In this document: piece by piece, positions 13,290 to 42,127 of the stretch
Layout: the number at the start of each line of letters is the position of its first letter
Position numbering within the stretch: position 1 is the first letter of the stretch
Source: Burkholderia sp. WP9
Lineage (GTDB): Bacteria; Pseudomonadota; Gammaproteobacteria; Burkholderiales; Burkholderiaceae
Assembly (NCBI RefSeq): GCF_900104795.1
Contig: NZ_FNTG01000001.1
Coordinates: 3,720,001 to 3,784,000 of the forward strand
Length of the DNA: 64,000 bases
Direction: 5' to 3'
Position numbers and translations under genes: made by a program
The notes under the pieces: generated by a model
Database searches by the model: none
Told to the model about the DNA's origin: nothing
The model's input: only the letters and a program-made list of their open reading frames with translations

Positions 13290-13318
13290 TTACTGCTCCC
13301 TGCTGATAGATGGTTGGT

Positions 13319-14449: not shown

Positions 14450-14530
14450 GCGAAACTCCTCGTTAGGCTGATTCGGTGTGTGATGTTAGCCGTTTGCGGC
14501 CAGGAGCGACAGAGAACTCAGGGGAGAACC

Positions 14531-14574: not shown

Positions 14575-14587
14575 GGCAGCGGTCCGC

Positions 14588-17524: not shown

Positions 17525-17597
17525 GGGTGTTCCTGGCGGTGCGGCTATCTCTGCGCGAGGGACGCGCCGCACCAATCGGGTTAAACGTAAAGGTGAA

Positions 17598-17978: not shown

Positions 17979-18122
17979 CGGATGCTCCTATGCGGTGTGA
18001 TTCGGTAATGACTTAAAGGGCCCCCAAACCTGTCGCTTCGCGCCAGGTTCCCCCGAGGGGAACAAGAAAACTTGGGGCGGCCCGGCGTTTTCTTGTGAAG
18101 GTTTGCGCACGCGCCGGCTTGC

Positions 18123-19241
18123 TTAAACCGCGAGCACTTTGCCGTTGCGCACGAACGGCAGTTTTACCACGCTTGCGGGAACGTTCTTGTCACGAATTTG
18201 AACGTGAACGGTGTCGCCCGGCTGCACGCCTTTCGGCACGCGCGCAAAGGCGATCGATTCCTGCATGGTCGGGGAAAACGTGCCGCTGGTGATTTCGCCT
18301 TCGCCTTGCGGCGTGACGACTTTCTGATGAGCACGCAGCACGCCTGCTGCCTTGCCGTTGTCCTTCAGCAGGATCAGGCCGACGAACGCGGCCTGCGATC
18401 CGTCCGCTTCCAGCTTGCCCTTGCCGACGAAGTCGCGCGGCGAGGTGAGGTCGACCGTCCAGGCGAGGCCGGCGTCGAGCGGCGAGACGTTGTCGTCCAT
18501 GTCCTGGCCGTACAGATTCATGCCGGCTTCGAGGCGCAGCGTGTCGCGCGCGCCGAGTCCGGCCGGGCGCACGCCTTGCGCTTGCAGCGCGTTCCACAGC
18601 GCTTCGACGTGATCTGCGGGGACGATGATTTCGAAGCCGTCTTCGCCGGTGTAGCCCGTGCGGGCTACGGTCAATTCGCCGAACGGCGTGTCTTCGATGC
18701 GGGCGGCGTTGAACGGCTTCAGCGCTTCGGTGGCGGCGCGCGCGGCCGGCACGGTTTGCCAGACTTTTTCGCGAGCATTCGGGCCTTGCACGGCGACGAT
18801 CGCGTAGTCGCGGCGCGGCGTGATGGTCAGGCCGAAGCTGCCTTCGGCGTTGAGCTGGCCGAACCAGGCGATGTCTTTGTCGGCGGTGCCGGCGTTAACG
18901 ACCACGCGGAAGTGATCTTCGCCGAAGTAATAGACGATCAGGTCGTCGATCACGCCGCCGTTCGGGTTCAGCAGACAGGAGTACAGCGCGCGGCCGGGCG
19001 TTTGCAGCTTGGCGACGTTATTGGCCAGCGCATATTCGAAGAAGGCGCGCACGCGCTCGCCGGTGAAATCGACGACGCACATGTGCGAGACGTCGAACAT
19101 GCCGGCGTCGGTGCGCACGGCGCGGTGTTCGTCGATCTGCGAGCCGTAGTTGACGGGCATGTCCCAGCCGCCAAAATCGACCATGCGGGCATTGAGCGCA
19201 CGATGGGTGGCGTTGAGCGGGGTGTGTTTGAGTTCGGTCAT
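18123..19241 (-). CDS. gcvT: Aminomethyltransferase, T protein
   Basis: GcvT transfers the methylene group from the H-protein intermediate to tetrahydrofolate and releases ammonia. The 372-residue protein starts MTELKHTPL at the ATG at 19241, after a GAGG ribosome-binding site; an in-frame ATG at 19277 lies inside the terminator hairpin of the riboswitch and is not used. Family signatures include the N-terminal [20 protein letters not shown] and the folate-binding [14 protein letters not shown] block. It is the first gene of gcvT-gcvH-gcvP and directly follows the glycine riboswitch. Confidence 0.97.
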
Positions 19242-19302: not shown

Positions 19303-19324
19303 AGCTGCGAGCGATGCGTTGCAT

Positions 19325-19607
19325 GGCCCCTCTGTCCTCGATACCTGAGAGATTGCGTTGCCGTGAGAATGTGAATTCGTCACGGTGAAACGCGCGCCCC
19401 TTCGGTGGGCAGCCTGCCAGATCCGCTCGATTTATAACGACGCAGACGGCTACTGCCGCTCTCCAGAGTGCGAAAAACCTGTGCGCTGAGCTTGGTTCAA
19501 CGCGGGTTCTTCGACGCGGTCGGTCCTTTTGCCTGAGAGTTTGCGGGTGTGCCCCTTCGGCGGCGCGGCCTGCGGTTTCCCGCGGCCAGCGCGCTCTCCC
19601 GACGCGT
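19325..19607 (-). ncRNA. Tandem glycine riboswitch upstream of gcvT
   Basis: Two glycine aptamers follow one another on the minus strand. Aptamer 1 (about 19510-19607) has GGGAGAGCGCGC, then CCGAAGGGGCA, then CTCAGGCAAAAGGACC. Aptamer 2 (about 19325-19475) has TCTGGAGAGCGGC, CACCGAAGGGGCGC and TCTCAGGTATCGAGGACAGAG. These are the conserved cores of the gcvT RNA element. Both modules are complete, and a terminator hairpin separates them from gcvT. The expected effect is glycine-induced expression of the glycine cleavage operon. Confidence 0.93.
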
Positions 19608-26093: not shown

Positions 26094-26260
26094 CCCGTTC
26101 GGCTCGCGGCCGGGCGGCAAATTCATCGAACATCGCATTTCCTGCGCTCTTGCCGCAAAGCCGCACCGAACCGGGCAAAGCTCCGAGGTGCCGCGCCACC
26201 CCGGCTGCCTCTCGCTGCAACAAGGTTGTTGAAAGCGTCCCCTGCCGTTAGAATCCCCCG

Positions 26261-26367
26261 GTCACTGGGGAGTAGCCTTCCTTCATCCATTGAAGGAGAG
26301 CGCGTCAACATACTTGGCCTTTCGGTCATGGCGCGTTCGACCGGGTCGGTTTGGCGAGACCATTGAC
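26261..26367 (+). ncRNA. yybP-ykoY manganese riboswitch
   Basis: The conserved core of the yybP-ykoY element is present in order: P1 5' side GTCACTGG, then GGGGAGTAG (26267-26275), the loop CGTCAACATACTTGG (26302-26316), and GGCGAGACC (26353-26361) with P1 closing CCATTGAC (26360-26367). This RNA senses Mn2+ in other bacteria and activates export genes. It lies 160 bp upstream of a CaCA-family exchanger. A 9-bp perfect hairpin GGTCGGACG/CGTCCGACC (26383-26430) follows and may be part of the expression platform; there is no T-run, so control may be translational. Confidence 0.88.
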
Positions 26368-26526
26368 GTACTGCCTCGTTCTGGTCGGACGGGTGGCGGT
26401 GCGTCATTGGTTTGTCATCTACGTCCGACCGCGGAGTTGTCCCGTGATACCTCGTTTTGCCCTGCCAGTCTTCCCGCTTGGCCGTCCGCCGCGCCGCTGC
26501 CTCTCCATGCTTGAAGGGAAACGCGC

Positions 26527-28686: not shown

Positions 28687-29958
28687 GAAAGCCTCATCGA
28701 AAACGGTGGGTCGAATCTGGAGCGAGCGCCAGTCTAATGGGCTAAGGCGCTTATTGCAGCCCTTGCGAGATTTTTTCGGTGACAGCGGAGCCCGCTCCTT
28801 CGGCACGAATATCCATTGAATAAATCAGCAAGCCGGACGACTCCCCGCTTCGCCTAGCCCTTCGGCAGCGTTACAAATTTATCTCTGAAATTGCCGGAAA
28901 CGTTGCTAGTATTGCCAACGATGCCAGCGTGGTGATTCGTCCACTTTCCGCATGCTTCGTTTGATGCGGCGTTTCTCGTTTTCAAGGAGCGCTCATGCAA
29001 GCCCTGTATTCCGTCGCACTGCCATTCCCAATTGTTCGAGTGACATAGCATGCTTTATCCGCGTGGATTGATATCTGCTTGCCGATTTCTCGGCCGCATG
29101 AACACGCGCGAAATAATGAATTCGATTTAAATCGGACACGCGAAAGCCACCGCTCCTTTGAAACGATTTCGCGTAGGCAAAGGCGGGCGCTCGGCAATGA
29201 GAGCGCCCATAGACGAGGCCCAATAATGGGTTATAGCTGCGTGTTTGGGGAGGAAACGGTATGCGCGGTCGCGTTCGTGTCTGTGTTCTCGCCGGTCGGT
29301 ATGCGGGCCGATTTGAGCCAACGCGACAATACGAACCTTGACGCCACAAGCGATGTCTTGCCGGGGAACCGCCGTACGATCAGGAGCGGCGCTGTCTTTG
29401 ACACCGACCAGCGTACCCAAACGCTGATAGAGAAGTCGAACAGCTTTGTCAACAGCGTGAGCAAGACAAACTGTTTTTATTCGGACACCGACGCATCGGG
29501 CCCATTTCGCGACGGCGGCGGGCGCTACACTGCGAGCTTCCATGGAGATCGGCAGCCGTCTGAGAAAGGCGCCCGGTCGCTGACGTTATACAACTGGCAT
29601 TACTTTTCTTCACTCAACGCACATAACCGCTACGCGCCCCGGCAAGCCGATCAAAAACTCGAATTTCAACGCAAACGGCTTGCTCTCGCTCCACGTGCGA
29701 GACGAGAGGCCCGCGAAGACAGTTTCGCCAATGCGTCGCCGGTGCCGGCTGTTGCAAAGTTCTCCCTGTACTTGCGCGCCTACGGGTCGCGGCAAGCCAT
29801 GCTCGATGAAAACTGGACGCCGCCGTCAATCGCGTGCGAAGGTCGACACAAGGCCGACACACGGGCGCACCCGCGCGCGTGCGGCTTGGCGACGCAGACG
29901 GTGCGGATGCGGTTCGGCTGGAGTGAGAATGCCGAACTTCTATTTGATGAGGACGATC
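28687..29958. other. Gene-poor 1.27-kb stretch, partly AT-richer
   Basis: Neither strand contains a recognisable gene. A plus-strand frame is open from 29079 to 29972 (297 codons), but it overlaps the next gene's start, lacks a ribosome-binding site and has no family-like segment, so I do not call it. Base composition around 28860-29130 and 29400-29660 is more AT-rich than the core. The region upstream of 29959 presumably holds the promoter of the outer-membrane protein gene. It may be decayed DNA. Confidence 0.45.
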
Positions 29959-30933
29959 ATGAGTCAACCTAACCGTTTCTTCGCGACGAGGCAGCTCGTC
30001 ACCCAGCTGTGCAAAGGCGCGCTTCTGACCACTGCCGGTGTGAGTCTCTGCCAAACGGCGTGGGCGACTGAAGGCGGTATAGGCCGGCCCATTACCGGCA
30101 TGCAGGTGACGCCGTACGGCGGTGTCGTGCCGCCCACCAACGACTGGATCGTGTCCGCCGCCACGATCTATTACGAAGGGTCGCTAGGCGCGAGCAAATC
30201 GATTCCGATCGCCGGGCAGGTCACGGCCGGCGTCAACGCGACGGCCGAGTACACCATCCTCGCTGCGGTCAAGACGTGGGGTATCACCGCGGGTGGCTGG
30301 AACTTCGCGTCCTCGTTCGGCGTGCCGGTCCAGTACACCGACATCTCGTCGTTCCATGGCCGCTTGCCGAACGACCACGGCACGCAATTCGCCGATTTCT
30401 TCTTCACGCCGGTCATCGCCGGTTATCACCTGACCAAGACAGACCATGTCGCGCTGAGCGTGCAGATCTATGCGCCGACTGGCGCATACAACCCTAACCG
30501 GCTGGCCAATGCCGGGCAGAACACGTGGACCTTCACGCCGACGATCGCCTATACGAAGCTGCTTCCGAAAGAGAACATCGAATTGTCGTTGAACTATGGT
30601 CTCGAGTTCTACACACCCAATAACGACACCCACTATCACAACGCGCCGGTCAGCGTGCTCGATCTACTTGCGCTCAAGCGCTTCAGCAATGGCTGGGGCG
30701 TCGGCGTGGTGGGCGGCTACATTCAGCAGATCGGCAATGACAGCGGCGGTATCGCAGACCTCGTCGGCGGCAGTCAGGGGCATTCCGTCGGCCTCGGGCC
30801 GATGGTCACGTGGTCGGGCAAGATCCAGAAAACCCCCGTGTCGGCGGCCCTGCGGTGGGTCAATGAGTTCAACACGAGCAACCGGCCGAAGGGCAATGCG
30901 GTGCAACTGTCGGTCAATGCGACTTTTCAGTAG
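29959..30933 (+). CDS. MetA/SphA-type outer membrane transporter-like protein
   Basis: The 324-residue protein has an N-terminal export signal (KGALLTTAGVSLCQTAWA) and a barrel-like body rich in alternating Gly/aromatic strands (GQNTWTFTPTIAYTKLL, IELSLNYGLEFYTPN, GWGVGVVGGYIQQIG). It ends in the outer-membrane signature VNATFQ. This matches the family annotated as phenol-degradation protein MetA / SphA, outer-membrane proteins often found with aromatic-compound catabolism genes. None of those genes is nearby. I take ATG 29959 because GAGGA lies 6 bases upstream; ATGs at 29929 and 29947 are alternatives. Confidence 0.8.
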   Translation: MSQPNRFFATRQLVTQLCKGALLTTAGVSLCQTAWATEGGIGRPITGMQVTPYGGVVPPTNDWIVSAATIYYEGSLGASKSIPIAGQVTAGVNATAEYTILAAVKTWGITAGGWNFASSFGVPVQYTDISSFHGRLPNDHGTQFADFFFTPVIAGYHLTKTDHVALSVQIYAPTGAYNPNRLANAGQNTWTFTPTIAYTKLLPKENIELSLNYGLEFYTPNNDTHYHNAPVSVLDLLALKRFSNGWGVGVVGGYIQQIGNDSGGIADLVGGSQGHSVGLGPMVTWSGKIQKTPVSAALRWVNEFNTSNRPKGNAVQLSVNATFQ

Positions 30934-31165
30934 CGCGCGCGGTGAGTCGAGCGTGAGACGTGAGTTGCCGGAAGCGTTGCGCCCGTCGCTTGCTTGAATG
31001 GCAAGGAAAGACTGTGTGGTCGCTTGGGGGCCGCGATGCGTCCGCCTCCGCCGTAACATCTATCGGCAAGAGCGCGGCTGTGGCGGCCGGCGGCCGCGCG
31101 GCAGCGCACCGCCGAAGATCGGGCAGCCCGCTCAGGCAGACGCAAACTGGACTCGAGCGTCCCGA

Positions 31166-31903
31166 TCAGCGCTCCATCTCGCGCTGGCATATCGCGTACA
31201 CGCTCGAGCACAAATCAGGATAGACGCGGCCTAACTCGAAACAGCCGTCCAGATACGCTCGGGAGATAATGCCGGCCTGCAATGCCGCATCGATCTGGAA
31301 GTTGGCGAGACCCTTGAAAAACACGCCGCCTTCAGTCACCGGGCGCAGGTTCGCCGCACGCAGATCGGCCCGCAGCGTATCGATCGAATAGGTTACCCGG
31401 TGTCCATGTGCGGCTTCCGCCGGCGTCACGGCGGCGTGATGGTCGATCAGTCCCATGTTGACCGCGATCTGCCGGGAGCCGGCGCGCGCATTCGGCGCGG
31501 CCACGAACAGCCGGCCACCCTCGGATAACCAGCCACCAATCCGCCTCAGCACTTCAACCGGATCATCGAGGTGTTCGAGCGTATGGATGAGGAAAATATT
31601 GTCATAGCGTCGCGACGGTTCGAAAGTCTCGAACGTCGAGTGATGGAAGCTGGCGGCGCCTTGGGTCTTATCCGACGCAACGGCGATACAGTCCGCGGAT
31701 GCTTCGACCACTTCCACTGAATCGAAGCGCTTCGTCAGAAGGCGCGTGAAGTTGCCTTCGAAGCATCCCAGTTCAAGCGCGTTATCGCCGGCGAGGAACG
31801 GCTCGAAGGTCCGAAGCATGTACTCATGCATCAGGTAGTCGAAGTCGTAAGCGTAGCGATGTTCCGGATGATCTTTCGCTTCCGCGTTGTAGTCTCTGCT
31901 CAT
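31166..31903 (-). CDS. SAM-dependent class I methyltransferase
   Basis: The 245-residue protein has the SAM-binding glycine motif NALELGCFEGNFTRLL, an acidic beta-2 residue (VEVVEAS), and the post-motifs IFLIHTLEHLDDPVEVLRRI and GGRLFVAAPN of small-molecule methyltransferases. It is the last gene of the seven-gene glycan operon. Its ATG is four bases behind the stop of the PhyH-family gene. I infer O- or N-methylation of the sugar made by the operon, as known for several flagellin glycans; a free metabolite as substrate is possible. Confidence 0.85.
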   Translation of the reverse strand: MSRDYNAEAKDHPEHRYAYDFDYLMHEYMLRTFEPFLAGDNALELGCFEGNFTRLLTKRFDSVEVVEASADCIAVASDKTQGAASFHHSTFETFEPSRRYDNIFLIHTLEHLDDPVEVLRRIGGWLSEGGRLFVAAPNARAGSRQIAVNMGLIDHHAAVTPAEAAHGHRVTYSIDTLRADLRAANLRPVTEGGVFFKGLANFQIDAALQAGIISRAYLDGCFELGRVYPDLCSSVYAICQREMER

Positions 31904-31907
31904 GTCG

Positions 31908-32693
31908 TCAATCCTGTCCGCGTTGATAGAACCGCTGCTCCACCGGCACGTAAAATTCATCGAGCGACTCCGGCACCCGGGCATTGAAGCCGAGCACCTG
32001 GCGCATCCATGCATTGCAGCGGTCGAGATTGCGGTAGCCGAACAGCCGCGCGTAATCGAGCTGTGGCTTGAAGAATGGGCTGGTGAAAGTCAGTGTCAGC
32101 GCACGTCGCGGCGCGTCGGTGGTATTGCGTCCGGTGGCATGCCACATGCGCGAATCGAACAGCAGAACCGAGCCGCGCTCGCCGGTCGCACGTGCGGCCT
32201 GAGCGTAGAAATGCTCGTCGGTAGGCTGCTGCTGGATGTTTTGCGAGTGCGAGAGAACATGCGTCGCGCCGTTCTCGAGCGTGAAATCGTCGAGCATCAC
32301 CAACGCGTTCACCATGAAGCGCCGCGTGTCCGAGCCGAAGCGAATGTCGCGATGCACGTTCTGCACATACGAGCGCGAGGCGCGTTCGTTGATCACGCCG
32401 CCGTACGAATTCAGGATGAAGTTGCCTTCAAAGTATCCTTTGAAAACCGGCTCCAGCGCCGAGAGTTCCGCGAGCAATTCGACGTAGCACGGGTCATCCA
32501 TCAGCAGATGATGCAAGGTGCCGGCGCTGTTTTCCAGCACGCCGTTGCGTCGTCGGATTGCGTCGCGCAGCGCGAGCGAAGGGCCCAGCGCCTGGACCAG
32601 CGAATCGAGCAATTCGCTGCGTATCAGGCGGGGAAGCACGGTCCAGCCTGCCGTTGCAAGTGCGGTGTGGTGGTGAGCGTCAATCGTGTTCAT
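31908..32693 (-). CDS. Phytanoyl-CoA dioxygenase (PhyH)-family oxygenase
   Basis: The 261-residue protein belongs to the Fe(II)/2-oxoglutarate dioxygenases of the PhyH type. It has the iron-binding HxD in VQNVHRDIRFG (about residue 115) and the distal His in DSRMWHATGRN, with a jelly-roll-like run between them (MVNALVMLDDFTLENGATHV). It should hydroxylate a small molecule or acyl/sugar substrate using O2 and 2-oxoglutarate. It lies between a GNAT gene (33 bp upstream) and a methyltransferase (4 bp downstream), so hydroxylation followed by methylation of a glycan or its acyl group is the likely use. Confidence 0.85.
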   Translation of the reverse strand: MNTIDAHHHTALATAGWTVLPRLIRSELLDSLVQALGPSLALRDAIRRRNGVLENSAGTLHHLLMDDPCYVELLAELSALEPVFKGYFEGNFILNSYGGVINERASRSYVQNVHRDIRFGSDTRRFMVNALVMLDDFTLENGATHVLSHSQNIQQQPTDEHFYAQAARATGERGSVLLFDSRMWHATGRNTTDAPRRALTLTFTSPFFKPQLDYARLFGYRNLDRCNAWMRQVLGFNARVPESLDEFYVPVEQRFYQRGQD

Positions 32694-32726
32694 GGGTGGA
32701 GCAAGACAACGGCAAAAGGGAAGGGC

Positions 32727-33251
32727 TCAGCGCCGATCGTCAGCCAGGATGGCCATCGGAATGATGTCGAGATAGCGGCCGCCTTTGAAGGCGGCCTGGC
32801 GCAGCAGACCTTCGGCACGAAAGCCCACTTTCTCGTAAAGCGCGATGGCGCGCGCATTGGATGCGAGCACGGTCAACGAAATGCGGTTGAGATTGAGGTC
32901 GCCGAACGCGTGGTCGAGCGTCTGACGCGTCGCGGCCTCGCCGATGCCCCGGCCGCGTGCCGTTTCCGCGCCGATCTGAATCGAGAACTCCGCGCTGCGG
33001 TTCACCCAGTCGATGCCCAGCAGGTATGTCACGCCCACCACGGCCTGGGTCGAGGCGAGACACACGGCGAGACGCACGTTGCCCGCGCGGGAACCGAGGT
33101 AACTATCGAACCATTTGTTGTCGATCTCGGCGCCCACATAGCGGAAGGCGCCGCCCAGCAGGCTGACCAATGCCTTGTCGGCGCGCCATGCATTGATTGT
33201 CGGCAGATCGCCGCGCTCGATTTCGCGCAGGAATATCGTGTTGTCGCTCAT
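32727..33251 (-). CDS. GNAT-family N-acetyltransferase
   Basis: The 174-residue protein has the GNAT fold signatures: a strand ending VVGVTYLLGID, the acetyl-CoA pyrophosphate loop in ETARGRGIGEAATRQTLDHAF, and the C-terminal ASNARAIALYEKVGFRAEG. These resemble acetyltransferases acting on amino sugars or protein amines (RimJ/RimL-like). The ATG overlaps the stop codon of the upstream DegT-like gene (ATGA), which implies translational coupling. The amine made by the operon's aminotransferase is the likely acceptor. Confidence 0.88.
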   Translation of the reverse strand: MSDNTIFLREIERGDLPTINAWRADKALVSLLGGAFRYVGAEIDNKWFDSYLGSRAGNVRLAVCLASTQAVVGVTYLLGIDWVNRSAEFSIQIGAETARGRGIGEAATRQTLDHAFGDLNLNRISLTVLASNARAIALYEKVGFRAEGLLRQAAFKGGRYLDIIPMAILADDRR

Positions 33252-34225
33252 GCGAGCCGGTCCAGTAAGTGTTGCACGATCGGCTCGAGATCGTCGCGTG
33301 TGAGGCGCTGATCGCACGGCACGCAAAGCGTCGAACCCGGGAGATCGCGTTCGAAGTCCGGCGCGCCTTCAGCGTCCGCCACGTCCGGCCAGTAGGTGGG
33401 TGTATAGATGCGCTGCGCACGAAGCGCTTCGCGCGCGCCGGTGGGCGCGTTGAACAACGGATAGCAGAGCGGCACCGTCTGTTCGTCGTAGCGAAACGTG
33501 AAGCGGTTGTAGCGCTGCAGCTTCTCGTGCAGGAAGGCGAAATTTTCGACTCGCCGTGCCTTCACACTATCGTAGTCGATGCTGGCGAGTAACCGCTCGG
33601 TCAATGTCGACATCCGCAACGGCTCTTGTTGCTTCAGACTTTCTTCGGCCGCCGCGTAGTCGGCGTAGCCTGCTTCCGCATCTTTCGCGAGCCGGGTCAG
33701 CAGATGCCCGCAGCGCAGCAATGAGCCTTCGTCAAACGCTGCCGGCATGTCGACTGGCTGCTGCGTGACGAGATAGCCGCCGTCCGGCACGCCGAGAAAT
33801 TTTCGCGGCGAATACAGTGTGGCGAGACAATCGGCGGGCCGCGCGAACAACGCCTGCGCATTGTCGATCAGCACGCGTTCGCGCGGAAACCGGCTGAGCA
33901 CGTCGTCGACCTGGCGAGCGCACAGTCCGAAGTAGTTGACGTAGACGAGCCACTCGCCGTGCGCGAGGTCGGCAGACTGCACGCGCAAGTCGGCATCGAG
34001 CCGATAGCGTTTGACCGGCGTGCCGGTCATGCGCAGCGGTTCGATCATCGCATCGCAGACGTACCAGGGCATCCAGACGGCAGTCGGTCGCCCCGCGCGA
34101 AGCAGTGCAAGAAACGCGGCGCGCGACGACTGAAAGCGCAGTGCGTTGCCGTGAAGCGACGCGTCGACTCGCGGCAGTTCGAGTTCGAAATAGCCGCCGA
34201 TTGCGCGCGATTCGCGAGCCGTCAT
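33248..34225 (-). CDS. Divergent DegT-like PLP aminotransferase homologue
   Basis: The 325-residue protein resembles the DegT/DnrJ/EryC1 fold but is short and divergent. Visible markers are VWMPWYVCDAMIEPL near the N-terminus, an Asp that would bind PLP in VLIDNAQALFA, and a lysine candidate for the internal aldimine in LYSPRKFLGVPDGGYL. Start and stop both overlap the neighbouring genes by ATGA. It could be a second sugar aminotransferase or a related PLP enzyme such as a dehydratase; catalytic competence is unproven. It is the fourth gene of the glycan operon. Confidence 0.7.
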   Translation of the reverse strand: MTARESRAIGGYFELELPRVDASLHGNALRFQSSRAAFLALLRAGRPTAVWMPWYVCDAMIEPLRMTGTPVKRYRLDADLRVQSADLAHGEWLVYVNYFGLCARQVDDVLSRFPRERVLIDNAQALFARPADCLATLYSPRKFLGVPDGGYLVTQQPVDMPAAFDEGSLLRCGHLLTRLAKDAEAGYADYAAAEESLKQQEPLRMSTLTERLLASIDYDSVKARRVENFAFLHEKLQRYNRFTFRYDEQTVPLCYPLFNAPTGAREALRAQRIYTPTYWPDVADAEGAPDFERDLPGSTLCVPCDQRLTRDDLEPIVQHLLDRLA

Positions 34226-34920
34226 GCGTTCACCTCGACGCACAGCATATCTCTCACGCTGTTTTTGCTATTGAACATCAGGACGTCGAGAATGGATAAG
34301 GCCGGGTGAAACGCGTCATCGAACTGTGCGTACGGGCTCAGGTTCGGCTCGATAAAGGCAAGCTCCACGCCGCGTGCCGAGAATGCGTTGCTATCGTAAA
34401 GCGCTCGACCGCCCGGCAGGTTCACATAGGTAGCCGCCTGCTCTCGCGCGCAGATGTCCAGGACCCGCTCAGTACCTTTGAGTTGCGCATTGCCGTATTT
34501 CGTCGACGACGGGACGAACTCGGTATCGATCTCGAGGTATTTGCAGATTTCCATCACGGTGTGCGAGGCGAGCAGCGAAACCGGCGCGAGCGGCTCCGCC
34601 AGAATCCGTCCGACCAACGCGCTCACCTGCGGGTAGTGAGGCGCTTTGGCATAAGCATGCCGAATCGATTCGAGCAGCTTGCGTAGCCAGCGCTCGCGCG
34701 GCTCGACCAGCACCTCGTTGATCTTCAGCATAGGGCTCGCGCCACTGAGCGGCACGGTGAGATAACGCACCTGGTCGCCCTGCAGCATGCGGTTGCGGTT
34801 GATCCAGCCGTTCTTGATGAAGTTCACGTCGTCGTAAAAGACGAACTTGTCGACAGCCGCTGCCAGCTGAAAATAGCCGATATACGGCAGCAGGTAGGGC
34901 TGCATGATCGCGAGCTTCAT
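34222..34920 (-). CDS. WbqC-family protein
   Basis: The 232-residue protein begins MKLAIMQPYLLPYIGYFQL and continues with FVFYDDVNFIKNGWINRNR, the signature of the WbqC family (Pfam PF08889). Members are found in O-antigen and flagellar glycan clusters, and their reaction is poorly defined. It has no signal peptide or membrane segment, so it should be cytoplasmic. The ATG is five bases behind the upstream aminotransferase stop, and its own stop overlaps the next ATG. Its presence supports a sugar-tailoring pathway. Confidence 0.85.
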   Translation of the reverse strand: MKLAIMQPYLLPYIGYFQLAAAVDKFVFYDDVNFIKNGWINRNRMLQGDQVRYLTVPLSGASPMLKINEVLVEPRERWLRKLLESIRHAYAKAPHYPQVSALVGRILAEPLAPVSLLASHTVMEICKYLEIDTEFVPSSTKYGNAQLKGTERVLDICAREQAATYVNLPGGRALYDSNAFSARGVELAFIEPNLSPYAQFDDAFHPALSILDVLMFNSKNSVRDMLCVEVNA

Positions 34921-34925
34921 GGCGT

Positions 34926-36071
34926 TCAGGTATCCGCGATGATCCCGATGATGCGATCGAGCATGTCGTCGGTCAGCGCCGGGAAAATCGGCAGACACAG
35001 TACCTGTTGTGCAGCGGTATGCGCGACCGGCAGATTGTCCTGACGCGCCGAAGGCAGGCCGCGATAAATCGGAAAGTCCGAGATCAGCGGATAGAAATAG
35101 CGGCGCGCGTAGATATTCTGGTCGCGGAACTTCTGATACAGCGCATCCCGGCTGATCGGATACTCCGGGCCGACGAGAATCGGAAAGTACGAATGGTTCG
35201 CGACTTTCTGGCCTTCTTTGGGCAGGCAGCGGATACCGCGCACGTCGCGCAGCCGTTCGCGATAGATTGCGTCGATCCGCGCGCGCCGCGCCAGCGCTTC
35301 GTCGATGTGCTGCAATTGCAGCAACCCAAACGCGGCGTTGATTTCGCTCATCTTGCCGTTGATGCCGGACGCAACTACAGTCACCTCATCGACGAATCCA
35401 AAGTTCTTCAGATGGTCGATGCGCTGTTTGGTCTTGGCGTCCTGGCAAATGATCGCGCCACCTTCGAAGGTATTGAAGACCTTCGTCGCGTGGAAGCTCA
35501 GCACGGCAAGGTCGCCGTGTTCGAGCACACTGCCGGTTTCGGTCTGCACGCCGAAAGCATGGGCCGCGTCGTAAATCACCTTCAGATTGTAGTTGTCGGC
35601 GATCTTCTGGATCGCCTCGACGTCGCACGGCTTGCCGTAGCAATGCACCGGCATGATCGCGGTGGTCTGCGGCGTGATCGCGGCCTCGATTTTGGCGGGA
35701 TCGAGATTGAGCGTATGCGGATCGACGTCGGCGAATACCGGTTTGATGCCGTTCCAGACCAGCGAGTGGGCGGTTGCCACGAACGAATAGGGCGTCGTGA
35801 TCACCTCGCCGGTCACGCGCAGCGCCTGCAGCGCGGTGAGCAGCGCCAGCGTGCCGTTGGTGAACAGCGCAAGATGACGCACGCCGAGGTACTTGCACAG
35901 CGCCTCTTCGAACTGCTGGTGAAATGGGCCGGCATTGGTGAGGATCTTGCTGTCCCAGATCTGTTGAAGATAGGGGATGAATTCTTCAAGCGGCGCAAGG
36001 TGCGGCTGGGTAACGTAAATGCGCTCGTCGATCTGCGGGTCGATGGCCCCAAGCGGTAAGGCTGCGTTCAC
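34926..36071 (-). CDS. DegT/DnrJ/EryC1 sugar aminotransferase, VioA-like
   Basis: The 381-residue PLP enzyme transfers an amino group to a keto-sugar nucleotide. The PLP lysine lies in LSFHATKVFNTFEGGAI, wording I associate with VioA-type dTDP-4-keto-6-deoxyglucose 4-aminotransferases; the PLP-binding Asp is in VIYDAAHAFG. The N-terminal TNGTLALLTALQAL block is also typical. The GTG start at 36071 overlaps the TGA of the upstream OGT gene (GTGA), fixing the start and implying coupling. Its product would be a 4-amino-4,6-dideoxyhexose; this is inference from motif and context. Confidence 0.9.
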   Translation of the reverse strand: MNAALPLGAIDPQIDERIYVTQPHLAPLEEFIPYLQQIWDSKILTNAGPFHQQFEEALCKYLGVRHLALFTNGTLALLTALQALRVTGEVITTPYSFVATAHSLVWNGIKPVFADVDPHTLNLDPAKIEAAITPQTTAIMPVHCYGKPCDVEAIQKIADNYNLKVIYDAAHAFGVQTETGSVLEHGDLAVLSFHATKVFNTFEGGAIICQDAKTKQRIDHLKNFGFVDEVTVVASGINGKMSEINAAFGLLQLQHIDEALARRARIDAIYRERLRDVRGIRCLPKEGQKVANHSYFPILVGPEYPISRDALYQKFRDQNIYARRYFYPLISDFPIYRGLPSARQDNLPVAHTAAQQVLCLPIFPALTDDMLDRIIGIIADT

Positions 36072-38455
36072 TTGTTGTCCCCTGTCTTGGACGGCGCGGC
36101 GGCGTCGTCGGTGGCGGCGGTGGCTTCTTCTGCCGTTACTTCGAACGCGACGGGCGGTTGGTCGTCGCACCAGCGTTGCCACATGATTCGCAATGCGCGC
36201 GACAAGCCCGCGGCGACGACTTCAGGCCGGAATGCCGCCGAGGCCATGCAGCGCTCGCGCAAACCGGTGCGCAGTGCGGCGAGCGCCTCGATATCCGACG
36301 ACAGCGCGACGCCCTTGGCGACGAAGTCCGCCTTATCGGCGGCGAGATACTGTTGCAGGCCGACGTGCGACATCCAGGTGGCGCCGGCGCGGCTCGGCAA
36401 CGTCTCGCCTGCAATCGTCAAGGTCGGCACGCCCATCCACAGGGAATTCAGCACGGTGGTCGAACCCGTGTACGGGAACGTGTCGAGGCAGATATCGACG
36501 TGAAAATGCTGCTGCAGATAGACCGGAATGCTCGAGCGGCGGCGGAACATCAGACGCTCGCGCGAGATGCCTGCTTTGTCGAACCAGTCGAGGAGCAATT
36601 GTTCGTCCTCGTCGGTTGCAATCGCGCCCAGCAACATTCGCGACGACGGTTGCGCGTTCAGCAATTCCGCCCAGAGGGCGATCACGTCGGGGCGCAGTTT
36701 GTTGAGGCGGTTGAAGCTGCCGAACGTCACGTAGCCGTTGTGCATGGCCGGCAGGATGTTGACCGGCGGCGCGCTTTTTTCCGGCAGGAAGGGCGCGTTC
36801 GCGGGCAAATGGACGATCTTCTCGGAGAACATGCGCTCCGGTTCGCCGAACGGCACACCGAACCGGTCCACGAGGTAATAGTCCATCGCGCTCAGGCCGG
36901 TCGTGGCCGGGTAGCCGAGCCAGCTGACCTGGATCGGCGCGGGCTTGCGCGCGAACGTGAGAAGACGATTGCGGCCCGTGTGGCCGGACAGGTCGAACAG
37001 AATGTCGATTCTGTCGTCGCGGATCCGGTTGGCCAGGTGCGCGTCCGGCATGCCGGTGACCTGGTGCCATTCATGGGCGCACTTGCGCAGCAAATGGGTG
37101 TAGTCGTCTTCCAGGATGTGGTTGTTGTACACATGAAGCGAGACGCTGGCGTCGGTCGCGAGACGCTCCATGATCGGCAACAGATACGAGGCGACGGCGT
37201 GACGGAACAGGTCACCGGAAACGAGGCCGATCTTCAGCTTGCGATTCGGCGTGCGCTTGTTCACATGACGCGGCCACTGCGAACGCACCGGCGCTTCGTG
37301 CTGTTGCGCGAATTTAATGTGTTCGGCGAACAGCGTGTCCTGCTTGACTTCAGGATTGTGGGCGAGCGAAAACAGATAGTTGTCCGCCGCGATCGGGTCT
37401 TTCGGGTCTTTCTCCAGCGCGACGTGAAAGCTTTTCTCCGCTTCGCTCACCATGCCCAGATCGAGCTGCAACACGCCCAGTGTGTTGTACATGCCGGACG
37501 TGTCCGGCGCCAGTTCGATCGCGCGCCGGGCCGCAGCCAGACCTTCGGCCACTCGTCCCTGGTGAACCAGCGACATGCCGTAGATCCGTTGCGCTTCGGC
37601 GTAGGCCGGGTTGATCGCGATGATCGCGCGGCAGACTTCTTCGGCGTCCTTGTGCAAGCCTTTCAGTCGCAGCGTATCCGCGAGGACGGCGCGACTCTCC
37701 AGCTCTTCGGGCAGGAGTTCGGCAGCCTTGCGCAGCGGGATGAGCGCGTCGTCGTAACGGCCCAGACGATGCAACGCAATCCCGAACCAGCGCCACGCGT
37801 TGCCGTCGGCGGGGAAGCGCTGGGTTAGCGTGCGAGCCAGTTTGACGGCGTCGGCGATCTGGCCTTTGTTGTAGAGCGACGTGAATCGCGAGGTTTCCTG
37901 CTGGCTTACGCGCCGTCCGGCTGCGATCGTGGACTTGCCGGCATCTGCGGTTGCTTCTGCGCCTTCGCTATTTGTTGGAGCGGCCGCGCTGCCGGCTGAC
38001 TGCGGGTTCTGGGCTGCCACGGGCTGCGTCAGGACGATCTTGCCGGGATTCGCCATCCGCACGATCAGGCCGTCCACCGCCGGGCCCTTCAGTCCTTGCT
38101 TCTGCGCCATTTCCAGCGCGAGCCACGCGGCGGCGGTTTCACCGGCGTCGATCAACGCGCTGATATAAGCCGTCCAATACTGGCCGTTTTGCGGTTGCTG
38201 ACCTAGCGCCAGTTCGAAGCGGGGCAATGCGTCTTTGGGACGGTCCGTTTGAACGAGCAGCACGCCAAGGTCGTAAAGCGCGTCCGAGTGCTGCGGTTTG
38301 GCGTCGAGGATCGCCAGATAGAGCGCTTCGGCGTCGTCGAATTCGCCCTTGTGGTGGTGCTCCAGCGCCGTTTGCAAAACGAGTGCGATGTCGTGCTCGA
38401 GCTGTTGTTCGGGCGTCAAGGGGTCAGCTGTCGGCTGCTCGTACAGGAGAGTCAT
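36068..38455 (-). CDS. TPR-containing O-GlcNAc transferase-like (SPINDLY) glycosyltransferase
   Basis: The 795-residue protein has TPR repeats (about 25-420, with canonical segments such as ALYLAILDAKPQHSDALYDLG and AIIAINPAYAEAQRIYG) and a C-terminal GT41 domain (about 440-790; RKLKIGLVSGDLFRHAVASYLLPI, LFDLSGHTGRNRLLTF, VTFGSFNRLNKLRPDV, LDTFPYTGSTTVLNSLWMGVP). Such enzymes attach sugars to Ser/Thr of proteins in the cytoplasm, and several bacterial ones glycosylate flagellin. It follows fliC-fliD-fliT, separated by a terminator, and heads the glycan operon. I chose ATG 38455 after AGGAGA; the frame is open further upstream without homology. Confidence 0.92.
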   Translation of the reverse strand: MTLLYEQPTADPLTPEQQLEHDIALVLQTALEHHHKGEFDDAEALYLAILDAKPQHSDALYDLGVLLVQTDRPKDALPRFELALGQQPQNGQYWTAYISALIDAGETAAAWLALEMAQKQGLKGPAVDGLIVRMANPGKIVLTQPVAAQNPQSAGSAAAPTNSEGAEATADAGKSTIAAGRRVSQQETSRFTSLYNKGQIADAVKLARTLTQRFPADGNAWRWFGIALHRLGRYDDALIPLRKAAELLPEELESRAVLADTLRLKGLHKDAEEVCRAIIAINPAYAEAQRIYGMSLVHQGRVAEGLAAARRAIELAPDTSGMYNTLGVLQLDLGMVSEAEKSFHVALEKDPKDPIAADNYLFSLAHNPEVKQDTLFAEHIKFAQQHEAPVRSQWPRHVNKRTPNRKLKIGLVSGDLFRHAVASYLLPIMERLATDASVSLHVYNNHILEDDYTHLLRKCAHEWHQVTGMPDAHLANRIRDDRIDILFDLSGHTGRNRLLTFARKPAPIQVSWLGYPATTGLSAMDYYLVDRFGVPFGEPERMFSEKIVHLPANAPFLPEKSAPPVNILPAMHNGYVTFGSFNRLNKLRPDVIALWAELLNAQPSSRMLLGAIATDEDEQLLLDWFDKAGISRERLMFRRRSSIPVYLQQHFHVDICLDTFPYTGSTTVLNSLWMGVPTLTIAGETLPSRAGATWMSHVGLQQYLAADKADFVAKGVALSSDIEALAALRTGLRERCMASAAFRPEVVAAGLSRALRIMWQRWCDDQPPVAFEVTAEEATAATDDAAAPSKTGDNK

Positions 38456-38594
38456 GGTCTCAGCGCAGAATGGTCTATGACGGAAATTGTGCGACGGAGA
38501 GGGCGTTTCCGATGCTCGGAGATGACGGTAAAAAGGCCGCCTGTTTAGCGTATGGAGAGGGGGGCGGAAAGCCGGAAGACCAGCGGGGAAAAAG

Positions 38595-38618
38595 AAAAAA
38601 GCCCGCACGAGGCGGGCT
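38595..38618 (-). terminator. Intrinsic terminator after fliT
   Basis: On the minus strand AGCCCGC-CTCGT-GCGGGCT is followed by TTTTTTC. It ends the fliC-fliD-fliT transcripts about 110 bp past fliT and separates them from the glycan operon. Confidence 0.88.
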
Positions 38619-38730
38619 GAGGGAACGAGCGCGCCTCACTTTGGCGCGTAGTTCTTATTATTCGGTCGGCCGGTCGAACCGGCTCTTACGGAGCGGATGC
38701 CGCTTCGGGGCATGCCGCTTCGGGTGATTT

Positions 38731-39045
38731 TTAAAGGCGGGCCATGCGCTGATATTCGCCGGCGGCCTTGGTGCGCCCGATCGCCGCTTCAAACTCGGTA
38801 TGCAGTTCGTTCTGGGTGACTGCCGCGTCGGCGACCAGGGCCGCGTCGATCGCCTGGATCTGGCGGATCATTTCCAGCGCGGCCGGCTCCTGCTCCGCGG
38901 TGAGCGACATCAGCAGCGGCGAGCGTGCTTCGGTCAGGCGGGCGGCTTCCGGCCAGTCGGCAAGCGAGGCCGCCTGCTCGATTTCGCGCGTGATCGACAG
39001 CACGCGTTCGACCAGTTCCGTCTGATTCATGGTGTGCGCGTTCAT
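38731..39045 (-). CDS. fliT: Flagellar export chaperone FliT
   Basis: The 104-residue, all-helical protein has the size and composition of FliT, the cytoplasmic chaperone of the filament cap FliD. FliT also restrains FlhDC in enteric bacteria. It starts 3 bp after the fliD stop, the usual fliD-fliT order. Sequence identity in this family is low, so the call rests on length, helical pattern (ELVERVLSITREIEQAASLADW) and position. There is no membrane segment. Confidence 0.85.
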   Translation of the reverse strand: MNAHTMNQTELVERVLSITREIEQAASLADWPEAARLTEARSPLLMSLTAEQEPAALEMIRQIQAIDAALVADAAVTQNELHTEFEAAIGRTKAAGEYQRMARL

Positions 39046-39048
39046 TGC

Positions 39049-40554
39049 TTAGCCCTTGTTCGTGGCCAGCGCGCCCGCGCTGTTGGTGCCGCCGAACAGC
39101 GCGGTCAGGTACTGCGAATTGTTGTTCATGGTCGCCATCAACGTATTCAGGGCGGTGAACTGCGCCTGATACTGGTTCGTCAACTGTGTCGTGTAGTCGG
39201 CGAGGGCGGTTTGCTGCGTGGTGATGCTCTTCAGATCGGCATTGAGCGCGGTATTACGCGTGTCGATGATGCCGCCGGTCTGCGTGAACGTGGTGATGCT
39301 GGAGTTCAACTGCTCGGCAATGCCGTTGGTCGAGTTGAAGAGCGATGCGACCGTGGCCGGACTGCTCGTCAGCGCGGTATTCAGCGCGGTATTGTCGACC
39401 ACCAGCGTGCCGTCCGCCGGATTGTCCTTCAGCGAGATGCCGATCGCCGCCAGCGTGGTGCCGGTGCTACCCGAGCCGACCGAGCCGCCGATGATGGTGG
39501 CCAGCGTGTTCTTGATCGTCTGCAGCGTGGAGTCGCCGAGCAGCGGACCTTGCGAGGACGAGCCGGAGCTGAACGAGGTGAGCGTGGACATCGTCGTGAC
39601 GACGGTGTTGTAGAGGCTCACGAAATTATTGATCGCGGTGTTCTGCGAGGTGGTGTCGGCCGCAATGGTCAGCGTCTGCGTGGTGCCGGCGGATGCGGAC
39701 GTCAGGTTCATCGTGACGCCCGCAATGGCGCTCGTCACCGCATTGGTCGAACTGCTGGCCGCGATTCCGCCCACGGTGAATTCCGCGTCCTGGGCAAAAC
39801 CGCTCTGCGTCCAGGCGCTCCCCGCGTTGGCCGAGGTGATCGTCGACTGGCCGCCGGTGGTGCTGGCGGTCGAGGTCACGCCGAGGCTCGACAGGCCGTT
39901 GTCGGTCGTGATGTTGCTGGTCGTGACGTTGATGACGTTCGCTGCCCCGGTGTTCGCCGCGCGCAGCACGAGGTGGGCGCCGTCCGTGCCGGTCACGATG
40001 GTCGCCGTGACGCCGGGGTTGCTGCTGCTCGCGTTGATTGCCGAAGCGATGCCCGAGAGCGTGTTGTTGGTGCTGTCGACGTTGATATCCATCGACTTGC
40101 CGCCCAGCGAGATGGAGAGCGTGCCGGTGCCCAGTTGTGTCGTGGAGCCGAAGGCCGCCGACGACAAGGCTTGCGAGCTGGCAATCTGCGTCACGGCGAC
40201 CGAGTAGCTACCGGCCACGGCGCCGACGCCGGCGGTCGCGGTCAAGCCGGTGCCGCTCGCGGTGGCCGCGAACGTCGACAGCGTGGTGCCGTTGGCGAGA
40301 TTCGTGATGCCCGACTGCAGTGCGCTCAGCGCCGAGCTTAGTGCGCCGTAGGCGGACAGCGTGGTGTTGTCGGTGGTTTGTCGTGCCGCCAGAGCCGCGG
40401 TTTGTCCTGCGGTCTTCGCGTTCACAAGCGCCGTGACGAGCGTCGACACGTCCATCGACGAATTGCCCGTCGAGCCGCTGATGATCGATTGAGCAGCCGA
40501 CTGCAGCGCGGCGTTGGCGCTTGCTGTAGAAGACGAGGTTGAGATCGAGGACAT
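39049..40554 (-). CDS. fliD: Flagellar filament cap protein FliD
   Basis: FliD caps the filament tip and folds flagellin subunits as they exit. The 501-residue protein is rich in Ser/Thr/Ala, with heptad-like helices at both ends, typical of the D0/D1 coiled-coil parts of FliD. The N-terminal segment includes DVSTLVTALVNAKTAGQTA, and the C-terminal end contains TTQQTALADYTTQLTNQYQ. No signal peptide is present, as expected for type III export. It lies between fliC (157 bp upstream) and fliT. Confidence 0.9.
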   Translation of the reverse strand: MSSISTSSSTASANAALQSAAQSIISGSTGNSSMDVSTLVTALVNAKTAGQTAALAARQTTDNTTLSAYGALSSALSALQSGITNLANGTTLSTFAATASGTGLTATAGVGAVAGSYSVAVTQIASSQALSSAAFGSTTQLGTGTLSISLGGKSMDINVDSTNNTLSGIASAINASSSNPGVTATIVTGTDGAHLVLRAANTGAANVINVTTSNITTDNGLSSLGVTSTASTTGGQSTITSANAGSAWTQSGFAQDAEFTVGGIAASSSTNAVTSAIAGVTMNLTSASAGTTQTLTIAADTTSQNTAINNFVSLYNTVVTTMSTLTSFSSGSSSQGPLLGDSTLQTIKNTLATIIGGSVGSGSTGTTLAAIGISLKDNPADGTLVVDNTALNTALTSSPATVASLFNSTNGIAEQLNSSITTFTQTGGIIDTRNTALNADLKSITTQQTALADYTTQLTNQYQAQFTALNTLMATMNNNSQYLTALFGGTNSAGALATNKG

Positions 40555-40630
40555 GCAGAGGCTCCGGGCGTCTGGAAATCTGTATTGGGTGGTGCGCGAT
40601 GCTACATCACTGCGTGATGGAAATGCACAG

Positions 40631-40695
40631 CGGGAGGCATGCCTCCCGTCGTTTGAAACCGGCGATGCGCCCCGCTTGCGCGCGACGCATCGCCG
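40631..40695 (-). repeat. Two tandem hairpins in the fliC-fliD gap
   Basis: Just behind the fliC stop codon are a 10-bp stem CGGCGATGCG/CGCATCGCCG (40660-40695) and an 18-bp palindrome CGGGAGGCATGCCTCCCG (40631-40648). Neither is followed by a T-run. They could protect the abundant flagellin mRNA 3' end or reduce read-through into fliD. Confidence 0.6.
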
Positions 40696-40710
40696 TTACT
40701 GCGTCAGCTC

Positions 40711-41859
40711 TTACTGCAGGAGCTTCAGAACTTGCTGCGGGTTCGAGTTAGCTTGCGCCAACACCGAGATACCAGCTTGCTGCAGCACTTGCGCCTTGCT
40801 CAGGTTCGCCGTTTCTTGTGCGAAGTTGGCGTCCGTGATTTGCGACTGTGCCGACGACAGGTCGGTCGATTCAGCTTGCTGCGACGTCGAGATTGCCGTG
40901 AAGCGGTTTTGCGCGGCGCCCAGTGCAGCTTGCAGCGTGTTCACGGTCTGCAGTGCGTTGTCGATCGAGACCATTGCTTCGTTCGCGCCGGTGACCGTGC
41001 TGATGTCGAGGCCCGAAACCGTCGGCGGGTTGTTGATCGCATTGATCTGTGCGATCGATGCGGTCGCGACGCCGGAAGCCGTTGCGCCCATCGCCGTGGC
41101 GAGCGTGGCGTTCAGCGTCAGGTTCGTGATTGCCGTGCCCGTACCCGATGCCGTACCGGCCGAGAAGATGTTGGACACTGCGCCCGACGAGATTGCCTGG
41201 TTGTTCTGGTCGGTGAAGGTGTAGCCACCCTTGCCGTCCGACAGCACGTTGACCGACGTGATCGTCGCGCCCGTGCTGGTGTACGTGCCGGTCGCGTCCG
41301 TGTTGACGGCGATCGTGCCAACCGTTTGACCCGTTTGCACCAGACCGCCACCGATCTTCGCTGCCGACATCGATTGGCTCAGGTCCAGGCTGATCGTCTG
41401 ACCGACGTTCGCGCCGACCTGGAACGTCACGCTGCCTGCCGAGCCGTCCAGAATGTTCGTGCCGTTGTACGTCGTTTGCGAAGCGATACGGTTCACTTCA
41501 GCGATCTGCGCCGAGACTTCCTTCTGCAGAGCTGCCTGGTCGCTCGACGACAGCGAACCGGTCGATGCTTGCACGGCCAGTTGGCGGATACGTTGCAGGC
41601 TCGAGGTCAGCGACGACAGTGCGCTCGATGCGGTTTGAATCATCGACACGCCGTCGTTCGCATTCGACACGCCCTGGTTCAGGCCGTTGATCTGCGTTTG
41701 CATACGCGTCGAGATTGCCAGACCTGCTGCGTCGTCAGCCGCGCTGTTGATGCGCTTGCCCGACGACAGGCGGGTGATGGCTTGCGAAAGGGCGCTTTGC
41801 GAGCCATTAAGGTTTTGCTGTGCAACCAGCGAGTTGATGTTGCTATTGATTCCGAGCAT
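40711..41859 (-). CDS. fliC: Flagellin
   Basis: FliC polymerises into the flagellar filament. The 382-residue protein has the conserved N-terminal D0/D1 region (MLGINSNINSLVAQQNL, LSSGKRINSAADDAAGLAIS), a short Thr/Ser/Gly-rich variable centre (about 175-280) and the conserved C-terminal helix ending QAGISVLAQANSNPQQVLKLL. It is shorter than enteric flagellins because the D2/D3 domains are small. The ATG at 41859 has an AGGAGA ribosome-binding site. The sigma-28 promoter lies about 90 bp upstream. The Ser/Thr-rich centre offers many O-glycosylation acceptors for the transferase encoded 2.2 kb downstream. Confidence 0.97.
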   Translation of the reverse strand: MLGINSNINSLVAQQNLNGSQSALSQAITRLSSGKRINSAADDAAGLAISTRMQTQINGLNQGVSNANDGVSMIQTASSALSSLTSSLQRIRQLAVQASTGSLSSSDQAALQKEVSAQIAEVNRIASQTTYNGTNILDGSAGSVTFQVGANVGQTISLDLSQSMSAAKIGGGLVQTGQTVGTIAVNTDATGTYTSTGATITSVNVLSDGKGGYTFTDQNNQAISSGAVSNIFSAGTASGTGTAITNLTLNATLATAMGATASGVATASIAQINAINNPPTVSGLDISTVTGANEAMVSIDNALQTVNTLQAALGAAQNRFTAISTSQQAESTDLSSAQSQITDANFAQETANLSKAQVLQQAGISVLAQANSNPQQVLKLLQ

Positions 41860-41947
41860 GGAAAATCTCCTAAATAAGCCTTGAGCCCAATACGCCACGT
41901 TGGCATCGGCGGAAGCACTCGTTCATTGCTGGCCGCCTCAATGAAGG

Positions 41948-41974
41948 TTGACGGCGCCCCTAAAAAAAACTTGA
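41948..41974 (-). promoter_or_regulatory. Sigma-28 (FliA) promoter of fliC
   Basis: On the minus strand TCAAGTTT, an 11-base spacer, then GCCGTCAA, matches the FliA consensus TCAAGTTT-N11-GCCGATAA in 14 of 16 positions. It lies about 90 bp before the fliC ATG and drives late flagellar expression. Confidence 0.88.
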
Positions 41975-42127
41975 GGAACTTTGTGCAATGGCGCGCCAAA
42001 CGTTTTCCATGCCGGTTTATTGCAATGTCGCTGAAAGCCGCTTGCAGCCTTGCTCTGCGGACCGACTGCAGGTATTGAAAAGTCGGCGTATTCTCTTTTC
42101 TCTCTTGTGACAAACCCTGGAAAAATC

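Follow-up and report, generated by a model that had tools for sequence, protein, structure and literature searches.

Background

Modified viosamine on the flagellin of Pseudomonas syringae, the 4-amino-4,6-dideoxy sugar Qui4N on that of Burkholderia cenocepacia, and genes for GT41 and DegT proteins in flagellin islands are all known. The P. syringae viosamine island is described as comprising vioA, vioM, vioT, vioS, vioB, vioR and acp (PMC3927599). Flagellin glycosylation islands of Enterobacteriaceae hold GT41, DegT and methyltransferase genes beside fliC (PMC4875605), the words "phytanoyl", "viosamine" and "vioA" not occurring in the main text of that paper. In Dickeya zeae WH1, WbqC and DegT genes lie between fliA and fliC, no function being given for WbqC in the passage that describes them (PMC9650423); the family is said elsewhere to be one that "may be involved in O-antigen production" (PMC5507510), and we found no function for it in the literature searched. 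Here we describe a locus of Burkholderia sp. WP9 contained in a stretch of 64,000 nucleotides (contig NZ_FNTG01000001.1, positions 3,720,001 to 3,784,000), hereafter the window, in which a GT41 protein, a VioA-like aminotransferase, WbqC, a DegT-like protein, a GNAT N-acyltransferase, a PhyH-family dioxygenase and a methyltransferase are encoded in succession behind fliC, fliD and fliT. The name DegT4 is used for the DegT-like protein (33248-34225, minus strand), which has a pyridoxal phosphate (PLP)-type fold and no Pfam family. These seven genes very probably form a flagellin-glycosylation operon, of a kind known in Burkholderia. We further favor, with a probability of roughly 0.55, the reading that this is a flagellin O-glycosylation operon whose amino sugar bears an N-acylated amino acid.

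Gene sets and sugar structures in O-antigen clusters

Eleven vioA-type regions of Escherichia coli were examined, with O-types taken from RefSeq flippase or strain names. WbqC is encoded in three (O121, and O123/O186 twice), vioA instead adjoins an acyltransferase gene in seven (O7, O49 twice, O116, O39 and two others), and one has neither; compared at the DNA level, 13 and 10 of 5426 genomes carry the two WbqC types. The gene order is DegT(VioA)-WbqC-GNAT in O121 and DegT-WbqC-"hypothetical"-GNAT-MaoC in both O123/O186 strains, and the "hypothetical" protein of the first of these strains is DegT4, being 37% identical to that of the window (profile E 9e-120) and retaining the K and D residues discussed below. 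The window likewise carries VioA, WbqC and GNAT together, with DegT4 as in O123/O186. We take O121 and Shigella dysenteriae 7 to share an O-unit (the title of the O121 paper cited below says Shigella-like).

Published structures, as summarized in one review (PMC10609480), place N-acetyl-glycyl on the Qui4N of S. dysenteriae D7 and N-[(S)-3-hydroxybutyryl]-D-alanyl on that of E. coli O123, while a second review (PMC3210612) cites N-acetylglycyl on Qui4N to the E. coli O121 paper and acetyl on Qui4N to the O116 paper. O-antigens with a Qui4N-aminoacyl group are also cited in these two reviews for V. cholerae O43, P. alcalifaciens O35, P. stuartii O33 and H. alvei 1205. Set beside these structures, the gene sets would pair WbqC with the aminoacyl group, DegT4 with alanyl over glycyl, GNAT with the cap and, plausibly, MaoC with the hydroxybutyryl cap. 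By this analogy, DegT4 is predicted to decide which amino acid is carried, and this would be of the alanyl type.

Association of DegT4 with WbqC or an ATP-grasp protein

A total of 234 pattern hits was obtained in genome contigs, of which 208 encode DegT4 relatives; the best 80 were kept as DegT4 loci. These derive from Pseudomonadota, Bacteroidota, Clostridium and others, and include a VioA-family gene in 76 and WbqC in 68 cases, tblastn and profile counts being in agreement. In loci lacking WbqC, the gene between VioA and DegT4 often encodes an ATP-grasp protein. Scored with a profile built from eight such genes, the 80 loci divide as follows: 66 have WbqC no more than 4.5 kb from DegT4, ten have a gene of a single ATP-grasp clade within 1.5 kb, none has both, and four have neither (L019, L044, L047 and L053), so that one or the other lay nearby in 76 of 80. 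Each of the ten ATP-grasp genes exceeds the cut-off of one or more Pfam models of ATP-grasp type. Eight exceed that of the D-Ala-D-Ala ligase C-terminal model; LAL_C2, which represents the C-terminal domain of L-amino acid ligases, has matches at E<=1e-3 in six, with only the one in L024 above its cut-off. This relation is a pattern of displacement and suggests amide-bond formation, an argument that rests on the ATP-grasp fold.

The GNAT gene is found directly downstream of DegT4 in at least 31 of the 80 loci, an undercount that misses at least L010 and L013, where a GNAT is visible by tblastn. Counts from an initial GNAT profile were left unused, as it caught GT2 proteins, probably by way of fused ORFs (L012, L019); the product of 13055-13981 in L024 is a GT2 protein. 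The first-pass annotation of this DNA had named conservation only away from flagellar genes, for example in O-antigen loci, as evidence against its reading. This is not what is seen: the module is present beside flagellar genes and in O-antigen loci alike, and 25 of the 80 loci have a profile match to FliC or FliD (the one in L074 being FlgL by sequence).

When sampled within the class regardless of DegT4, WbqC was present in 23 of 274 genomes. The 23 loci examined, from which the window's own genome and a broken copy in G160 were left out, contain a VioA-family gene in 18 cases, DegT4 in four and a FliC/FliD match in three. Since only four of these loci have DegT4, WbqC does not need it. Two loci from two genomes of one genus (L204 and L205) bring together flagellin, GT41, GNAT, DegT4, WbqC, methyltransferase, PhyH and VioA in another order, and are a second assembly of the same gene set; all components also lie beside flagellin in L036.

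Properties of the predicted proteins

The WbqC protein of the window passes the curated cut-off of PF08889 (230.9 bits vs 21.3), has one match in the whole genome and gave an AlphaFold2 model with a mean pLDDT (predicted local distance difference test) of 96.6; comparison with sequences of solved structures yielded nothing useful (best E 0.99). An idea drawn from its N-terminus, that WbqC is a PanC-like HIGH-motif enzyme, was set aside for now, as hhalign assigned a probability of 1 and missed the motif; with both profiles shallow (55 WbqC and 25 PanC rows), this is weak evidence.

DegT4 has no Pfam (including PF01041) or NCBIfam match at E<=1e-3, and its comparison with sequences of solved structures was similarly uninformative (best E 0.56); the AlphaFold2 model has a mean pLDDT of 89.4. 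Homologues number 1306 at E<=1e-3 among 7997 candidates scored. An alignment of 26 rows reveals an invariant D121, a YSPRKF motif containing K142, and DGG. The DegT4 profile aligns to that of VioA over 286 columns (probability 83, E 8e-6), so that D121 coincides with the PLP aspartate of VioA and K142 with its PLP lysine, both residues being kept in the O123 copy. Among seven control profiles, GNAT scored higher (probability 95), probably because that profile held fused ORFs, and the other six reached at most 0.3. As separate observations, a Clostridium locus (L053) has two DegT4 genes, at 9983 and 13132, with neither WbqC nor the ATP-grasp clade near, and ORFs in L012 (13010-15094, 694 aa) and L019 (12066-14441, 791 aa) match both DegT4 and the GT2-contaminated GNAT profile, and are possible fusions.

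The VioA-like protein scores 313 bits with the NCBIfam model for DesI, 243 with PseC, 183 with NF008687 (dideoxygalactose transaminase) and 147 with WecE, none of which reaches its own cut-off; WecE is a Fuc4N enzyme, although the NCBIfam text says dideoxyglucose. In six E. coli clusters whose O-serogroup is assigned, the aminotransferase is 57-64% identical to it; the figure for that of L087 is 56%. From these scores, and the identities to the E. coli aminotransferases, dTDP-Qui4N is its likely product. The best solved relatives of the GT41 protein are SPINDLY and the TPR_2 repeat protein 5djs. In the PhyH translation, H-R-D and a distal His can be seen, residues that we take to be functional.

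A polymorphic site behind flagellin in the genus

DegT4 was sought at E<=1e-20 in 117 genomes of the genus, flagellin being recognized as NF006470 at E<=1e-60, and was present in 14. In 11 of these carriers flagellin is encoded no more than 12 kb away on the same contig (at about 6.5 kb in nine), and the remaining three have no NF006470 match at that threshold within this distance on the same contig. A further 18 flagellin-bearing genomes lacking DegT4 were chosen non-randomly, all with a full-length flagellin match, and one locus was examined from each. All 18 show fliC-fliD-fliT-GT41, and VioA is next in 15, being missing from L154, L156 and L157. What follows VioA differs. A PglD/VioB-type acyltransferase is found in six loci (L143, L145, L146, L147, L149 and L152); a KASIII/SDR (short-chain dehydrogenase/reductase)/hexapeptide/Rieske set, which is VioS/VioR-like and of fatty-acyl type, in another six (L140, L141, L144, L148, L150 and L153); WbqC with a methyltransferase in one (L142); and no recognized cassette in two (L151 and L155). 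A PhyH-family gene is also present in five of the six KASIII loci, but at E<=1e-10 none of the 18 loci gave a match to the PhyH or the methyltransferase of the window. The VioA of the window is 90-93% identical to those of KASIII-type loci and 76-77% to those of PglD-type loci.

The differences in cassette argue that acyl genes have apparently been exchanged behind a conserved flagellin-GT41-VioA backbone, and the site behind fliC-fliD-fliT-GT41-VioA is polymorphic within the genus, with three recognized cassettes besides that of the window. The locus combines a glycosyltransferase gene conserved beside flagellin with a nucleotide-sugar gene, that of the VioA-like protein. These findings support the proposal of the first-pass annotation that a flagellin-linked operon makes a 4-amino-4,6-dideoxyhexose and attaches it. 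On a 189-kb contig of the genome that contains the window (L139, positions 1-19000), a second flagellin is accompanied by FliD, a FliT-like ORF and a further GT41; a 1438-aa ALTTAQ-repeat protein sits there between GT41 and FliT.

Operon layout and genomic setting

The seven ORFs, all on the minus strand, fill positions 31166-38455 (Table 1). Overlaps join GT41 to VioA (GTGA, 36068-36071), WbqC to DegT4 (ATGA, 34222-34225) and DegT4 to GNAT (ATGA, 33248-33251), and gaps of 5, 33 and 4 bases separate VioA from WbqC, GNAT from PhyH and PhyH from the methyltransferase, respectively. The initial description of a seven-gene operon on one strand, with 4-base overlaps and gaps of 4-33 bp, is therefore confirmed from the ORFs, the letters at the junctions and Pfam. 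Its placement directly downstream of the filament genes also holds, FliD and flagellin being identified by library match and FliT, which has none, by position and matching ORFs in 11 of the 80 relatives. The true start of fliC is probably near 41859, as judged from the genome match. A search for the same gene set beside fliC, suggested earlier, recovered the ten-gene order in relatives (for example L001-L005, L010 and L013), and its recurrence argues that the arrangement is not due to chance. Its closest named relatives belong to Paraburkholderia and Burkholderia.

A terminator-like hairpin between fliT and GT41 suggests that the operon may form its own transcription unit; the scanned region holds 18 terminator-like sites against a mean of 12.1 in shuffles. 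GC content is flat along 31000-41999 (0.595-0.646 per kb), and so gives no sign of recent foreign insertion. On the plus strand, large ORFs run antisense to the operon, and the one scanned with Pfam (38800-40341) had no match. Elsewhere in the window, a Phenol_MetA_deg family protein is encoded on the opposite strand just past the operon end (29680-30933), and Rfam identified two tandem glycine riboswitch aptamers (19322-19602, minus strand) and a manganese riboswitch (26255-26430, plus strand).

Table 1. Predicted features of the flagellin-linked locus, in window coordinates.
Feature	Length (aa)	Position	Strand	Basis
SAM (S-adenosylmethionine)-dependent methyltransferase	245	31166..31903	-	Methyltransf_23 7e-21
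PhyH-family Fe(II)/2-oxoglutarate dioxygenase	261	31908..32693	-	PhyH 2e-18
GNAT N-acyltransferase	174	32727..33251	-	Acetyltransf_3 1e-17
DegT4	325	33248..34225	-	profile alignment to VioA, AlphaFold2 model, O123/O186 orthologue
WbqC family protein	232	34222..34920	-	PF08889 E 2e-68
VioA-like dTDP-4-keto-6-deoxyglucose 4-aminotransferase	381	34926..36071	-	DegT family 1e-104
GT41 (OGT/SPINDLY-like) protein O-glycosyltransferase with tetratricopeptide repeats (TPRs)	795	36068..38455	-	Pfam GT41 8e-46
Intrinsic-terminator-like hairpin, fliT/GT41 interval		38600..38618	-	7-pair stem and T-run, consensus match only
FliT-like ORF	104	38731..39045	-	position after fliD, 82-90% identity in L001-L004
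fliD, filament cap		39049..40554	-	FliD_N and FliD_C
fliC flagellin, presumed acceptor		40711..41898	-	NF006470, 677 bits vs cut-off 423

Discussion

From gene content, order and recurrence, and from the observed match between gene sets and structures quoted in reviews, we infer the chemistry that follows, including which amino acid is used, what accepts the sugar and whether PhyH or the methyltransferase acts first. RmlA and RmlB, for each of which the model passes its cut-off at two sites elsewhere in the genome, would supply dTDP-4-keto-6-deoxyglucose, which VioA would aminate to dTDP-Qui4N. WbqC would join an amino acid to the 4-amino group of Qui4N through an amide; DegT4 would ensure that this residue is of the alanine kind and not glycine, whether by providing the amino acid or through transamination of a 2-oxoacyl group already attached; and GNAT would cap it by acylating its free amine. 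PhyH may then hydroxylate the product, in its glycan or acyl part, and the methyltransferase may methylate it (O-methylation is predicted), before GT41 moves the putative finished sugar onto Ser/Thr of flagellin in the cytoplasm.

A wider generalization is more tentative, and we would put it a little short of even odds: that WbqC is a previously unassigned family which joins amino acids to nucleotide-linked 4-amino-4,6-dideoxy sugars and is evolutionarily interchangeable with ATP-grasp ligases, that DegT4 is a new PLP branch serving alanyl, and that together they form part of a portable O-antigen/flagellin cassette, here giving an N-acyl-aminoacyl, hydroxylated and methylated Qui4N on flagellin.

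Several observations weigh against the proposed aminoacyl chemistry. Five of the 23 sampled WbqC loci have no VioA-family gene (one of these loci being only 4 kb long), and the VioA profile does not discriminate among sugar aminotransferases of the DegT family. The separation of WbqC from ATP-grasp genes is imperfect: L069 has WbqC together with an ATP-grasp gene of another type (ATPgrasp_Ter) after DegT4, and so indicates that the two can share a locus; L058 has the ATP-grasp gene at DegT4 and WbqC some 8.5 kb away; and L019, counted as having neither, has WbqC at about 5.5 kb. In one of the E. coli regions, marked by an O116-family flippase, vioA is accompanied neither by WbqC nor by an acyltransferase gene. 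In the literature searched, structures were found for only two WbqC-bearing cluster types, both by way of reviews, and the role given to DegT4 is a guess from one of them. No similarity was detected between the O121 GNAT and that of the window, and the O123 GNAT is only 27% identical. Lastly, WbqC shows no profile similarity to PanC, which forms amides (hhalign probability 1, against a shallow 25-row profile).

An alternative that we regard as unlikely, yet the most serious of those considered, is one in which the flagellin operon is retained but WbqC and DegT4 act on the sugar itself, for instance through a second amination, an epimerization or an O-acyl step, and GNAT simply N-acetylates Qui4N. 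The resemblance of the DegT4 profile to sugar aminotransferases is in keeping with such a scheme, as is the presence of PseH among the sub-cut-off NCBIfam matches of the window's GNAT (60 bits vs 93), PseH-type GNAT enzymes being known to acetylate 4-amino sugars. It accords less well with O121, where VioA-WbqC-GNAT corresponds to an S. dysenteriae 7 unit with N-acetylglycyl on Qui4N, with clusters O7 and O116, which employ a VioB-type acyltransferase, or with the replacement of WbqC by an ATP-grasp protein in ten of 80 DegT4 loci, which points to ligase chemistry.

Distinctly less probable is a sugar like that of P. syringae, toward which the first-pass annotation leaned: a 3-hydroxybutyryl Qui4N, O-methylated, with GNAT as the acyltransferase. 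VioA and a methyltransferase are indeed common to both loci, and a review table (PMC12355684) gives Qui4N(3-OHBut) for the flagellin of B. cenocepacia. The close analogy to the P. syringae acyl group is nevertheless not supported by gene content, VioS, VioR, VioB and ACP all being absent among the seven proteins of the window, as are a KASIII, an SDR reductase, a hexapeptide acyltransferase and a MaoC; a KASIII/SDR/hexapeptide set occupies the same place in six of the 18 relatives, and WbqC and DegT4 would be left unexplained. For VioA-WbqC-DegT4-GNAT, the better parallel is offered by O121 and O123/O186, where the published sugars carry N-acylated amino acids. Least probable is that the operon serves O-antigen or another surface polysaccharide and adjoins flagellin incidentally. 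In its favor, Wzx-like and GT2 genes accompany the VioA-(WbqC or ATP-grasp)-DegT4-GNAT block in some loci (such as L024), the block is also found in E. coli O clusters, and 55 of 80 loci have no FliC/FliD match in the surrounding DNA searched. Against it, one of the window's seven genes encodes a GT41 protein glycosyltransferase and none a Wzx, Wzy or GT2 protein, and both GT41 and DegT4 keep company with flagellin across the genus in the proportions given above.

Should an N-acylated amino acid on flagellin Qui4N be borne out, WbqC and a widespread PLP-type family with no Pfam match would each gain a testable function, and amino-acid-bearing sugars in O-antigens, capsules and flagella could become predictable from genomes. 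The decoration encoded behind the flagellin-GT41 genes varies within one genus in the manner of a swappable cassette, and the site could affect recognition by host or phage.

In the literature searched, we did not find the gene combination, the ATP-grasp substitution or the present reading of WbqC and DegT4, and the terms flagellin, glycosylation and phytanoyl-CoA dioxygenase never occurred together. The earlier remark that the combination with WbqC and PhyH was not recognized as a described one stands to that extent, but has to be qualified for WbqC, as WbqC/DegT genes at fliC are mentioned for D. zeae WH1 (PMC9650423).

Comparison with known systems

The window has GT41, DegT and methyltransferase genes beside fliC in common with the islands of Enterobacteriaceae (PMC4875605), and WbqC with the insert of D. 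zeae WH1 (PMC9650423). The flagellin of B. cenocepacia carries a Qui4N derivative, as expected here; compared by way of the review table (PMC12355684), it differs in that the listed acyl group is 3-hydroxybutyryl, whereas the window has WbqC-DegT4-GNAT-PhyH-methyltransferase. With the P. syringae island, the window shares a VioA-type aminotransferase, a methyltransferase and a flagellin target (PMC3927599). It differs from that island in lacking proteins like those of vioS, vioB, vioR and acp among its seven, and in that its transferase is a GT41 protein whose gene directly follows fliT; nothing here implies a rhamnose chain. The O-antigen clusters share VioA-WbqC-GNAT (O121) or VioA-WbqC-DegT4-GNAT (O123/O186) with the window, but build O-antigen with Wzx/Wzy and have no GT41, PhyH or methyltransferase annotated in the stretches examined, and O123/O186 has MaoC in addition.

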